A stretch of 58,936 bases of DNA, taken from assembly GCA_017626555.1 (NCBI GenBank), contig JAGAIM010000076.1:1-58936 (forward strand), in the 5' to 3' direction. Position 1 is the first letter of the stretch. Every line of letters begins with the position of its first letter. A program made the position numbers and the translations under genes. Positions 10,972 to 16,774 of the stretch are shown here, one piece after another. Source of the stretch: Bacteroidales bacterium. GTDB taxonomy: Bacteria > Bacteroidota > Bacteroidia > Bacteroidales > UBA932. Under the pieces are notes generated by a model. That model was not told where the DNA came from. It did no database searches and saw only the letters and a program-made list of their open reading frames with translations.

Positions 10972-12075
10972 ATGGAAGATAACCTCTTGAAGACCTGTCT
11001 TTATGACAAACACGTCGCTCTCCGAGCGCAGATGAGCCCTTTCGGCGGCTTCATTATGCCGATCCAATATACTACCATTACCGATGAGCACAATGCTGTT
11101 CGTCATCGTGCGGGAATGTTTGATGTTTCGCATATGGGCGAGATTTTTGTCAGCGGCCCGGATGCAGAGAAATTTGTGAATCATATCTTTTCCAACAATA
11201 TAGCCGGTATTCCGGATGGAAAGATTTTATATGGTATGCTTCTGTATCCGAACGGAACGGTTGTGGATGATCTTCTGGTATATAAGGAATTCGAGCCTGA
11301 CAGATATCTGCTTGTCGTGAATGCCTCGAACATTGCAAAGGATTATGATTGGATCTGTGCTCAGAAGGAAGGATATGATGTGGAGGTTGTGAATGCTTCA
11401 GACTCCTGGGGAGAGATCGCTCTGCAAGGCCCTGAGGCGGAGAAATTTGCAGTGGAGACACTTGGCCTTGAATCAGTTGCTGCATTGGGCTTCTATACAT
11501 ATTGTGAGGCTGAATGGAAAGGCACCAGGATGATCGTCAGCCGTACAGGATATACAGGTGAGGACGGTTTCGAGATTTATTGCTCTCACGAGGCGATAAA
11601 TGAAATATGGGATATTCTTCTTGAGGCTGGGGTAGTGCCTTGCGGTCTTGGATGCCGTGACACTCTTCGTTTTGAGGCAGGACTTCCGCTTTACGGTCAC
11701 GAACTCAGTGACGAGATCACTCCTCTTGAGGCTGGTCTGGGTATGTTCGTGAAGGTGAAGGATAAAGAGGAATTCATAGGACGTGAGGCCATAGTGGCAC
11801 AGAAGGAAGCAGGCTTGACCCGCAAGATTGTCGGTATAGAACTTCAGGATAAGGCAATTCCACGTGCCGGATATCCGGTTGAAGTGAATGGAGAACAAGT
11901 TGGAACCGTGACTACAGGTTACCGTTCTATCTCGACTGACCGCAGCGTATGTGTGGCAATGGTCGATAAGGAATATACCGAACTCGGAACTGCAGTGGAA
12001 ATACGTATCCGAAAGAAGGTGTTCCCTGGTACCGTTACCAAAAAGCGCTTCTACGAAACCAATTATAAGAAATAA
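10972..12075 (+). CDS. gcvT: Glycine cleavage T protein (aminomethyltransferase)
   Basis: 367 residues, the usual length. It takes the aminomethyl group from the lipoylated H protein and gives it to tetrahydrofolate, releasing ammonia and making 5,10-methylene-THF. The signatures visible are FGGFIMPIQY, GMFDVSHMGE (folate/active-site Asp), SRTGYTGEDGFEIY, LGCRDTLRFEAGLPLYGHEL and the C-terminal barrel YRSISTDRSVCVAMV. It is the first gene of a gcvT-gcvH-gcvPA-gcvPB-lpd operon. The ATG at 10972 follows a short A/T-rich leader. Confidence 0.96.
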   Translation: MEDNLLKTCLYDKHVALRAQMSPFGGFIMPIQYTTITDEHNAVRHRAGMFDVSHMGEIFVSGPDAEKFVNHIFSNNIAGIPDGKILYGMLLYPNGTVVDDLLVYKEFEPDRYLLVVNASNIAKDYDWICAQKEGYDVEVVNASDSWGEIALQGPEAEKFAVETLGLESVAALGFYTYCEAEWKGTRMIVSRTGYTGEDGFEIYCSHEAINEIWDILLEAGVVPCGLGCRDTLRFEAGLPLYGHELSDEITPLEAGLGMFVKVKDKEEFIGREAIVAQKEAGLTRKIVGIELQDKAIPRAGYPVEVNGEQVGTVTTGYRSISTDRSVCVAMVDKEYTELGTAVEIRIRKKVFPGTVTKKRFYETNYKK

Positions 12076-12103: not shown

Positions 12104-12487
12104 ATGGCAAAGACAGTTGAAGGACTCTATTACAGCGAGTCACACGAATGGGTAAAGGTTGAAGGTAATGTAGCAATCGTAGGCATTACTGATTTCGCTC
12201 AGCACGCAATGGGAGATCTCTCATACGTGGATATGCCTGAAGTTGATGACGAACTCGAAAAAGGCGAAGAGTTCGGCGCAGTAGAAAGTGTAAAGGCGGC
12301 CAGCGACCTATATAGCCCTGTGACAGGTACTGTTGTTGAGATCAATGAAGAACTTGAAGATGCTCCTGAACTTCTTAATCAGGATGCGTTCGCTAACTGG
12401 ATTATGAAGGTGGAGATGAGCGATCCTGCTGAACTTGAGACTCTGATGGATGCAGCCGCTTACGAGGCTATGTGCGCTAACGAGTAA
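12104..12487 (+). CDS. gcvH: Glycine cleavage H protein, lipoyl carrier
   Basis: 127 residues. The motif VESVKAASDLYSPVTG contains the lipoylated Lys64. H protein shuttles the aminomethyl intermediate between the P, T and L proteins. The start (MAKTVEGLYYSESHEW) is typical. It lies 28 bp after gcvT and 10 bp before the gcvPA ATG. Confidence 0.97.
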   Translation: MAKTVEGLYYSESHEWVKVEGNVAIVGITDFAQHAMGDLSYVDMPEVDDELEKGEEFGAVESVKAASDLYSPVTGTVVEINEELEDAPELLNQDAFANWIMKVEMSDPAELETLMDAAAYEAMCANE

Positions 12488-12497
12488 ATTAAATATT

Positions 12498-13826
12498 ATG
12501 GCATTCGCTTATTTCCCACATACGGAAGATGACATACGTCAGATGCTGGACAGAATCGGAGTAGGATCCCTTGAGGATCTCTACTCCGATGTTCCTCAGG
12601 ATGTCATCTACCGCGAAGAATATGACCTTCCGGATGCAATGTCCGAGCACGAGGTCCGTCAGTATTTTGAGGGTCTGGCAGAATTCAATACAAGCCTTTT
12701 CTGCCTTTGTGGTCTTGGAGCATACGACCATTATTCTCCGGCTGTAATCCCTCATATCATATCACGCTCGGAGTTCCTTACCGCATATACTCCATATCAG
12801 CCGGAGGTGTCTCAGGGTACTCTCAGATATATCTTCGAATATCAGTCGATGATTACTGAACTTACCGGTATGGATTGTACGAATGCGTCTATGTATGACG
12901 GTGCTACAGCCGCTGCAGAGGCGATGATGATGGCGATGGCTTCTACGAAGAAGAAGACCCGCGTCCTTCTTTCTGAAGGTCTTCTACCTCAGGTCGTGAA
13001 GGTCGTAAAGACATACGCAAAGTTCAATGGCGTGGAATTGGGATTCATCCCTTGTCAGGACGGAGTTACTTCATACGGGGCAATGCTGACCGAACTGGCT
13101 GTTGGAGATGTGGCTGGCGTTCTTGTGCCGGGCATCAATAAGTATGGTATCATTGAGGATCTGACTGGTTTCGCTGATGCTGTACACGCGCAGAAGGGAC
13201 TGTTGATGGTATATTCCGATCCTTCCTCTCTTGCAGTGATCAAGACTCCTGGCGAGTGGGGGGCTGACATTGTATGTGGTGATTCTCAGACTCTCGGTGT
13301 TCCTCTCTGTTACGGAGGACCATACGTCGGCTTCCTTGCCTGTACGAAGGATCACGTCCGCAAACTTCCTGGCCGTATCGTGGGTGCGACTAAGGACGTG
13401 GACGGAAAGCGTGCATACGTGCTGACTCTTCAAGCGCGTGAACAGCATATCCGTCGTGAGAAGGCAACAAGCAACATCTGCTCGAATCAGTCTCTGATGG
13501 CGCTGTATGTGACTGTATATATGTCACTTATGGGACCGAAAGGCCTGCGTGAGGTAAATGAACTCTGCTATGGAGGCGCTCATTATCTTTATGAAGGACT
13601 TCTTGGTACGGGCCTTTTCGAAAAGGTCTTCGACAAGCCGTTCCTGAAGGAATTTACGCTCAGGGCTCTGGTTCCTGTGGAAAAGATTCAGGACGCTCTC
13701 CTGATGATAGGTGTATTTGGCGCTGTCGAGGTGGAAAAGGGTCTTGTGAATTTCTGTGTGACAGAAAAGGTATCGAAGGATAATATTGACGCTGTTGTTG
13801 AATATCTTAAAGGACTTGAGTTATGA
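12498..13826 (+). CDS. gcvPA: Glycine dehydrogenase (decarboxylating) subunit 1
   Basis: 442 residues from the ATG at 12498. An in-frame ATG at 12450 lies inside gcvH and is not used. The start [17 protein letters not shown], the motif [21 protein letters not shown] and the catalytic-fold segments are typical of the alpha subunit in organisms where P protein is split. Together with GcvPB it decarboxylates glycine and loads the methylamine onto lipoyl-GcvH. The final codons overlap the gcvPB start by 4 bp, which suggests translational coupling and equal stoichiometry. Confidence 0.96.
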
Positions 13827-15358
13827 AGTACTACGATAAACTGATCTTTGATCTTTCCAAGGCCGGAAGACAGGGATATTCATTGCCGTCAAACAAGTGG
13901 GGAAATTCTGTTTCCGAACTTCCTGCAGGTCTTAAGCGTGCAAATGCTCCGGCTCTTCCCGAGGTGAGCGAACTCGATGTGGTACGTCATTATACGAACC
14001 TCTCGCAGATGAATTTCGGTGTTGATTCGGGATTCTATCCTCTTGGCAGTTGTACGATGAAATATAATCCTAAGATCAATGAAGAGATTGCGGCAATGCC
14101 TGCATTTGCGGGACTTCATCCGTTGCAGCCTGCTTCCACCGTGCAAGGAGCATTACGTCTCTACAAAGATCTTTCTGCGGCCCTCTCTGCTATCACTGGT
14201 ATGGCGGAATTCACTCTGGATCCGTTTGCCGGTGCTCACGGGGAACTTACAGGACTTATGGTAATCAGGCAGTATCATATTTCTCGTGGAGATCTGAAGC
14301 GTACCAGGATAATCGTTCCGGACAGTGCCCACGGAACCAATCCTGCTTCTGCTGCAGTGTGCGGCCTTCAGATTGTGCAGGTGAAGTCAAATGCAATGGG
14401 ACTCGTTGATGTTGAGGATCTTAAACCTCTTCTTGATGACACCATTGCCGGCATTATGATGACCAATCCGAACACTTTAGGTCTTTTCGAGAAGGATATA
14501 AAGGAAATTGCCGCTCTTGTCCACCAGTGCGGCGGTCTGCTGTATTATGACGGAGCGAATATGAATCCTCTTATGGGTGTGGTACGTCCGGGCGATATGG
14601 GATTCGATGTGCTTCATCTTAATCTGCATAAGACTTTCTCGACTCCTCACGGAGGCGGAGGTCCCGGTGCTGGACCGGTAGGTGTTGCAGCACACCTTGT
14701 TTCACATCTTCCGGTTCCTAAGGTGATGGAGGCTGAAGACGGATCATTATATGTCGCTGATGGCACTTGTCGCTGTGACTCTTCTCCGGAAGGTGCCGGT
14801 ACATTCGGTCCGGCCTGCGGCTGTGCTCCTGAATGCAAGTGCGGATGCCAGGCTTGCGGTCAGATTTCCGGCTTTATGGGCAATTTCGGGGTTCTCCTGA
14901 GGGCTTATACATATATTCTGATGTTGGGCAAGCAGAATATAAAGATGGTCGGTCCTCTTGCAGTCCTTGGTGCGAATTATATCAAGGAATCGCTTAAGGA
15001 TGTGTATAATCTTCCGATCGAGTCAGTCTGCAAGCACGAATTCGTGTTTGACGGTCTGGCTGACCAGTCAACGGGAGTTACTACCCTTGATATAGCAAAG
15101 AGGCTTCTTGACTACGGCTTCCACGCTCCGACTATATATTTCCCACTGCTTTTCCATCAGTCGATTATGATCGAGCCTACTGAGACAGAGTCGAAGGAGA
15201 CTTTGGATGGATTCATAGAAATAATGCAACACATTGCTGCAGAGGCGATTGCAGATCCTGAGTCCCTCAAGACCGCTCCTCATACAACGCCTGTACGCCG
15301 TCTTGACGAAACAACGGCCGCACGTCAGCCTATACTTCGCTATATCAGCGAAGTATAG
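13823..15358 (+). CDS. gcvPB: Glycine dehydrogenase subunit 2 with eight-Cys insertion
   Basis: 511 residues, somewhat longer than the usual 480-490. This is the PLP-bearing subunit: the Schiff-base lysine is Lys270 in [21 protein letters not shown], and [11 protein letters not shown] (167-177) contacts the cofactor. Between the DGSLYVADG strand and [13 protein letters not shown], where Bacillus-type proteins have only a short plain loop, this protein has an insertion with eight cysteines: 316, 318, 332, 334, 338, 340, 342 and 345, mostly as CxC pairs. The frame is intact and the flanks align well, so it is not a frameshift. The insertion looks able to bind metal or form disulfides. The end of the gene lies in an inverted repeat (15328-15360). 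Confidence 0.96.
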
Positions 15359-15394: not shown

Positions 15395-16774
15395 ATGAAA
15401 ATAATAATCATTGGTGCCGGACCGGGAGGATATGAGACCGCTTTGCTGGCTGCGAAAAGGGGAGTAGAGGTAGTGTTGGTCGAATCGGGAAATCTTGGAG
15501 GTACGTGCTTGAATGAGGGATGTATCCCTACAAAGGCTTTCTGCAGGAATGCTGAGGTGCTTGATGGATTGAAGGAAGCCGAGACATTCGGAGTGACCGG
15601 GCTTTCATACGGTTTTGACTTTGGTTCTGTCATCGCGCGAAAGAATGCCATAGTCGGGCAGTTGAGAAGCGGGGTAGAGTCTTTGATGGGGCATAAGATG
15701 ATAACTCTTGTGCGCGGAAAGGCTGTATTCAAGGATCAGCACACAGTCGTTGTTGCTTTTGATGATGGGCTTTCCCAGGAGTATTCCGCCGACTATATAA
15801 TCATTGCAACCGGCTCTGTATCAGCCTCTCTGCCAGTTCCAGGCTCTGATCTTCCGGGAATACTGACATCCCGTGAAATCCTTGATATAGAGGATGTGCC
15901 GCGCAGACTTTGCGTCATTGGCGGTGGTGTCATCGGTCTGGAGTTCGCGTCCATATTCCGTAGTTTCGGAAGTGAGGTGACCGTTCTGGAGTATTGTAAG
16001 GATATCCTTCCCCGTTTCGATACTGATCTTGCGAAGAGGCTCAAGCAGAGTCTCGGTAAGAGGGGAATCGAGATCAACACCCAGGCTCAGGTGACTTCCA
16101 TTGCCGTGAATGAGGGGGTATATTCTGTTTCGTTCATACGTAAAGGCAAGGAAGAAATTATTGAGGCAGATAAGGTGTTGATGGCAGTCGGGCGACGCGC
16201 CAATGTTGACTCTCTCAATCTTGCAGATGCCGAAATCGAATTCACACCACGAGGCATCATCGTGAATGATTCGATGCAGACAAATGTTCCTCATATTTAT
16301 GCTGTAGGAGATATCAATGGAAAAATGATGCTGGCTCACGCTGCAACATTCCAGGGTATCGTCGCTCTTGATCATATTATGGGAATCAGCAATGACATCG
16401 ATCTGACTGTTATGCCGGCAGCAGTGTTTACTTCTCCAGAGGCTGCAAGTGTGGGAATGACGGAAGATGAATGCAAGGAAAAGGGTATTCCAGTCAGATG
16501 CTTCAAGTCATTCTTCCGAGCCAATGGCAAGGCTGTTACAATGGGACAGACAGATGGTTTCTGTAAGGTTGTTGTGGCTGCGGAGCCTGATGAAGGTGGC
16601 ATTTATGAGGCAGGAAGAGTCCTCGGATGTCATCTTTATGGCCCTCATTCATCCGATATTATTCAGGAGGCTTGCGCTATGATTACACGGAAAGCGACTC
16701 TGGAAGAGTTCCAAAGTATAATTCATACTCATCCGACTCTCACGGAAGTACTTCAGTCGGCGTTGCATTCATAA
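15395..16774 (+). CDS. lpdA: Dihydrolipoyl dehydrogenase (L protein)
   Basis: 459 residues. An FAD-binding Rossmann motif IIIIGAGPGGYETALLA lies at the N-terminus. The redox disulfide is Cys38/Cys43 in GGTCLNEGCIPTK, the second NAD motif is CVIGGGVIGLEFAS, and the C-terminal dimer-interface HTHPTLTE supplies the catalytic His/Glu. It reoxidises dihydrolipoyl-GcvH with NAD. Its place in the gcv operon suggests service to glycine cleavage first, although 2-oxoacid dehydrogenases elsewhere may share it. The transporter gene follows 4 bp after the stop. Confidence 0.95.
   Translation: MKIIIIGAGPGGYETALLAAKRGVEVVLVESGNLGGTCLNEGCIPTKAFCRNAEVLDGLKEAETFGVTGLSYGFDFGSVIARKNAIVGQLRSGVESLMGHKMITLVRGKAVFKDQHTVVVAFDDGLSQEYSADYIIIATGSVSASLPVPGSDLPGILTSREILDIEDVPRRLCVIGGGVIGLEFASIFRSFGSEVTVLEYCKDILPRFDTDLAKRLKQSLGKRGIEINTQAQVTSIAVNEGVYSVSFIRKGKEEIIEADKVLMAVGRRANVDSLNLADAEIEFTPRGIIVNDSMQTNVPHIYAVGDINGKMMLAHAATFQGIVALDHIMGISNDIDLTVMPAAVFTSPEAASVGMTEDECKEKGIPVRCFKSFFRANGKAVTMGQTDGFCKVVVAAEPDEGGIYEAGRVLGCHLYGPHSSDIIQEACAMITRKATLEEFQSIIHTHPTLTEVLQSALHS

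Follow-up and report, generated by a model that had tools for sequence, protein, structure and literature searches.

What is a run of eight cysteine residues doing inside an otherwise ordinary subunit of glycine dehydrogenase? This question is raised by a 58,936-nucleotide stretch of DNA (the window) from a Bacteroidales bacterium, contig JAGAIM010000076.1, whose closest named relatives are Bacteroidales. In the window, five genes of glycine cleavage stand in a row on the + strand, followed by a DcuC-type carrier: gcvT (10972..12075; PF01571 and PF08669), gcvH (12104..12487; PF01597), gcvPA (12498..13826), gcvPB (13823..15358) and the dihydrolipoyl dehydrogenase gene lpd (15395..16774; TIGR01350, 484 bits). 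The gcvPB product, glycine dehydrogenase subunit 2 of 511 aa, matched NF003346 with 714.4 bits, above the curated cut-off of 441, and the P-protein chain 1wyt_B with E 4.6e-145. Its partner gene gcvPA lies directly upstream and overlaps it; the GcvPA match (NF001696, 549.5 bits) begins at residue 20 of a longer ORF, and the ATG at 12498 is a likelier start than the listed ORF opening at 12450. Lys270 in the HKTF segment of GcvPB (14630..14632, + strand), which we take to be the catalytic PLP lysine, showed no substitution across the 53 proteins aligned. The window's genus has split GcvPA/GcvPB, unlike the sister genera in the family (e.g., loci L118-L137), where the listed frames were mostly 930-1100 aa, corresponding to fused GcvP. 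One labelled relative (L010) prompts the guess that the genus may be Cryptobacteroides. No Rfam family reached its gathering score in the window.

The eight Cys residues fall within residues 316-345 of GcvPB (14768..14857, + strand), at positions 316, 318, 332, 334, 338, 340, 342 and 345, in the pattern CxC-x13-CxC-x3-CxCxC-x2-C. The remaining 481 aa contain only four Cys (77, 180, 236 and 403), and the binomial probability of finding at least eight Cys in 30 aa is ~1e-10. When open frames of at least 250 aa, read from stop to stop in six frames, were collected from the window together with 20 related stretches, each 15-16 kb long, more than five Cys in some 30-aa stretch occurred in 14 of the 265 frames, and these 14 were the insert-bearing GcvPBs. 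The initial annotation had described this region as a 30-aa insertion with eight Cys at nucleotides 14768-14857. All eight residues were confirmed in frame, while the part that is actually inserted relative to the nearest insert-free relatives is only 26 aa and brings seven Cys. Its premise that ordinary GcvPB has a short non-Cys loop at this site did not hold across the genus, where the loop is variable in length and often has one to three Cys.

The Cys residues and their spacing were invariant in all 14 species with the insert, with no indel in the module, although the linker columns between them hold up to five different residues each and the 14 GcvPBs share 83-99% pairwise identity. At all eight Cys codon columns both TGC and TGT were present with zero replacements, and dN/dS was ~0.15 at the non-Cys positions of the insert versus 0.027 at residues 45-504 outside it. 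The 14 invariant columns among the 30 include all eight Cys (hypergeometric P 5e-4, with columns treated as equal and kinship ignored); the other six are Gly 324, 326, 329 and 341, Phe 328 and Gln 343, and no conserved His was seen in the insert among the 14 species. The Cys residues at 77, 180, 236 and 403 were also invariant in these species, and a Cys at GcvPB column 394 was present or absent depending on the species. Fixed Cys at fixed spacing beside variable linkers, and the use of both codons at every Cys, make chance, neutral drift or an assembly error an unlikely origin of the insert. An assembly or frameshift artefact was also rejected since the stretch is common to 14 genomes without indels. 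These patterns suggest that the insert is a real, lineage-specific module in an ordinary enzyme, apparently kept by selection. The proposal of a functional Cys module, for which random variation of the Cys in close relatives had been named as the refuting outcome, is supported accordingly by the invariance in 14 of 14 species.

We searched for the insert with a profile (A2) built from five inserts over the 38-aa stretch of residues 312-349 (14756..14869, + strand). Of 400 genomes searched within the genus, 14 had the module, one copy each and the window's own among them, in GcvPB frames of 512-524 aa. Five of these 14 genomes, again including its own, belong to a 101-genome sample of the genus, in which 88 genomes had a match to the GcvPB protein. 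At the level of the order, the insert was present in 1 of 393 genomes, namely its own, and in 80 relatives taken from named genome contigs the loop differed in length and had at most three Cys, although some of these rows extend past the loop; neither search found the Cys pattern in Bacteroidales at large. In the phylum, profile matches occurred in 3 of 395 genomes: its own and two weak hits (E 5e-4 and 8e-4). The weak hits were set aside as chance, one lying in a frame with an internal stop and the other in a 43-aa frame, and neither locus had a frame of at least 30 aa with six Cys in 30 aa. No second copy of the insert was detected in its own genome at E up to 10. A mobile origin was rejected, as tblastn searches of plasmids and of phages with the 38-aa stretch, run with the low-complexity filter on, gave no match up to E 1; among viral contigs there were 27 matches to the Cys pattern, none of them confirmed as a relative of the insert. 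Tandem duplication was rejected as a source too, since 14700-14900 holds repeats of only 8-10 nt.

The loop that houses the module, measured from GGGGPG to GNF, ranged from 25 to 73 aa in the genus, the common insert-free lengths being 26, 46 and 47. We compared 96 GcvPB loci, one of which (L178) gave no frame; 87 of the other 95 loops were bounded by script and 8 were read by eye, and the 27-aa loop row of L173 is cut short. Among the 87 bounded loci, 31 loops had no Cys, 31 had one, 11 had two and 14 had eight, counts that do not represent a frequency because 9 of the 14 insert loci were chosen for bearing the insert; the 8 loops read by eye had 0-3 Cys. Loops of 25-26 aa, in which the preceding hairpin is apparently absent, made up 42 of the 87 bounded ones (e.g., L094 and L183), pointing to a tolerant site. 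L087 and L169 (G044) have a different, longer loop of ~61 aa, which apparently expanded independently and holds two Cys in the added portion.

All 14 insert species fell within one clade of 18 species with a support of 100 in a quick tree, which used 92 of 95 rows after three short rows were dropped and for which the careful search is unfinished. The four insert-free sister species (L165-L168) all have loops of 47 aa versus 73 aa with the insert, and all four possess Cys345. The module therefore consists of 26 new residues, seven of them Cys, added beside the Cys345 of the older loop. As these four clade members lack the insert, their GcvPB does without the module, which is evidently dispensable to some close kin.

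The species with the insert did not form one group when trees were built from gcvT, gcvPA and gcvPB, in which support within the clade was low in places. A single insert clade was rejected by the joined gcvT, gcvPA and gcvPB alignment (AU 0.0015) and by gcvT alone (4.5e-6), and was not rejected by gcvPA (AU 0.12) and by gcvPB without the loop (0.29). When gcvPB was split, the part after the loop came near rejection (AU 0.057) and the 600 bases before the loop gave 0.42, the split being approximate. The histories of gcvT and gcvPB seem to differ among close species (L152-L168 and the window), suggesting interspecies exchange of gcv genes. Because all four insert-free sisters share the 47-aa loop length, a single gain of the insert, combined with a swapping of gcv genes among close species, seems no less probable than repeated loss; we read the history as such a gain, with repeated loss a plausible alternative.

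An AlphaFold model, computed from an alignment of 53 sequences in which the insert is present in the window's sequence alone, was used solely for the place of the loop and the confidence. It contains strands at 300-303 and 309-312, an insert that is mostly coil and then a helix at 355-391. Mean pLDDT was 69 for residues 311-320, 43 for 321-330, 59 for 331-340 and 81 for 341-350, and confidence in the insert is accordingly low. The segment that precedes this helix often lies near the subunit contact in PLP enzymes of fold type I. When the model was used for a structure search, the best 19 of the 50 listed chains were P-proteins and the others shown were enzymes of other kinds, mostly PLP enzymes by title. 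The insert alone had no match among PDB sequences, and none of the five inserts scanned, out of the 14, matched a Pfam family up to E 10, a scan in which the HMMER filters may mask weak hits.

The initial annotation had proposed that the module may couple glycine cleavage to metal or redox state, or aid assembly with GcvPA/GcvH. That proposal found no direct support: over the 14 species with the insert and the 4 without, no Cys of GcvT, GcvH, GcvPA or Lpd tracked its presence, and the signal at GcvH column 51 is weak. Under a loose rule applied to the 18 species with kinship ignored, the columns tracking the insert were 77, 110 and 209 in GcvT and 51 in GcvH, with none in GcvPA or Lpd. GcvH column 51 is Leu in 14 of 14 species with the insert and another residue in 3 of the 4 without, kinship again being ignored, and offers only a hint that the insert may contact the H-protein. 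The absence of a tracking Cys argues, weakly, against a bridge from the insert to another gcv protein. Within GcvPB itself, tracking columns lie both near the loop (294, 310, 312, 314, 343 and 347) and at a distance (110, 116, 123, 133, 190 and 373). A Cys-x-Cys pair in GcvPA (residues 69 and 71, numbered from 12498) was kept throughout the 18-member clade, in insert-bearing and insert-free species alike; in three outgroup sequences these residues are Val or Ala.

Densely spaced CxC motifs typify thiolate metal sites, and a metal or disulfide role of the Cys module is plausible because its pattern is rich in CxC. Bacteroidales are largely anaerobes, in which stable cytosolic disulfides are less likely; since the closest named relatives belong to this order, disulfides in the insert are the less likely of the two. 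Judging from the sequence, we favor, with a probability of roughly 0.6, the reading that the insert is a metallothionein-like thiolate metal site, with zinc as the likeliest metal, that stabilises a surface loop or a docking face. According to this reading, a tolerant loop of GcvPB would have given rise to a compact metal-thiolate module between the hairpin at 300-312 and the helix at 355-391. The metal, most probably a pair of Zn(II) ions, would be held by the eight thiolates, either as one shared cluster or as two Cys4 sites (316/318/332/334 and 338/340/342/345). Once bound, it would turn the insert into a rigid knob and stabilise the loop or an interface with a partner subunit, with no change expected in the chemistry that GcvPB catalyses. 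The invariance of Gly 324, 326, 329 and 341 would suit tight turns. The points that count against a metal site are the lack of a conserved His that might point to a particular metal, the lack of a match in Pfam or among sequences of known structures, the low pLDDT and the absence of the insert from four members of the clade.

The same residues could instead serve redox chemistry. CxC and CxxC pairs can be redox-active and both occur in the insert, and the Cys might form disulfides under oxidative stress that shut or protect glycine cleavage. A precedent comes from a flexible loop of a bacterial P-protein that is said to take a disulfide-bridged or an open form (PMC7259800, citing a Synechocystis structure paper with a title that points to redox regulation), but that loop corresponds to human residues 360-384 and GcvPB aligns from human residue 487 onward, so that the two sites differ. 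Eight invariant Cys would also exceed the needs of a simple switch, and none of the remaining gcv proteins has a Cys that varies with the insert; we regard a redox switch as unlikely. An iron-sulfur site for sensing oxygen or iron seems unlikely as well: eight Cys could hold two 4Fe-4S clusters and the hosts are presumably anaerobes, but the insert has no Pfam match, and by eye it contains one CxxC spacing only (342-345), while common 4Fe-4S motifs use several.

The other two alternatives start from the tolerance of the loop. An abundant enzyme with a metallothionein-like appendage might buffer or sink metal while glycine cleavage goes on unaffected, as a density of eight Cys in 30 residues within a length-variable loop would allow. 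None of the eight typed neighbouring genes, the only ones considered here, is a metal gene, and the fixed spacing and the invariant Gly suggest a defined fold, making such a sink quite improbable. A neutral or selfish insertion with no function would explain why the loop varies in length and why four clade members lack the insert, but it is hard to reconcile with zero Cys replacements despite synonymous change at every Cys column, and we consider it very improbable.

The thiolate metal site thus remains our preferred reading. A bolder version, in which the P-protein of one Bacteroidales species cluster is a metalloenzyme whose new Cys8 metal-thiolate fold tunes glycine breakdown or the H-protein contact to zinc or redox state, is doubtful. 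No metal site in a P-protein was found in the open-licence papers searched, and to our knowledge none was known before. If it binds metal, the insert would therefore be the first such site that we are aware of, and would cleanly illustrate how a small new fold can arise within a conserved enzyme. As things stand, a central enzyme carries, on a tolerant loop, a lineage-restricted and evidently selected candidate metal site, and the insert-bearing and insert-free sister species allow a comparison.

Metallothioneins are characterized by high Cys density and CxC repeats, and by eye the insert is alike in both; it differs in lying inside a 511-aa enzyme, and it had no Pfam match to the metallothionein family. 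Pre-SET/CXC domains have nine Cys, with CxCxC runs that share zinc ions (Zn3). The insert has similar CxCxC runs but, with eight Cys, departs from the nine-Cys Zn3 pattern, and again had no match in Pfam. A Cys-based control has been proposed for the Synechocystis P-protein, similar to what is considered here for GcvPB, although that protein is fused and its Cys site lies elsewhere in the protein than the GcvPB insert (PMC7259800). The P-protein beta chain of Thermus thermophilus (1wyt_B) has the same HKTF and GGGGPG segments and aligns with the window's GcvPB at residues 7-308 and 344-510, on both sides of the insert; between these matched parts, the window's GcvPB has 35 residues (309-343), whereas 1wyt_B has 8.
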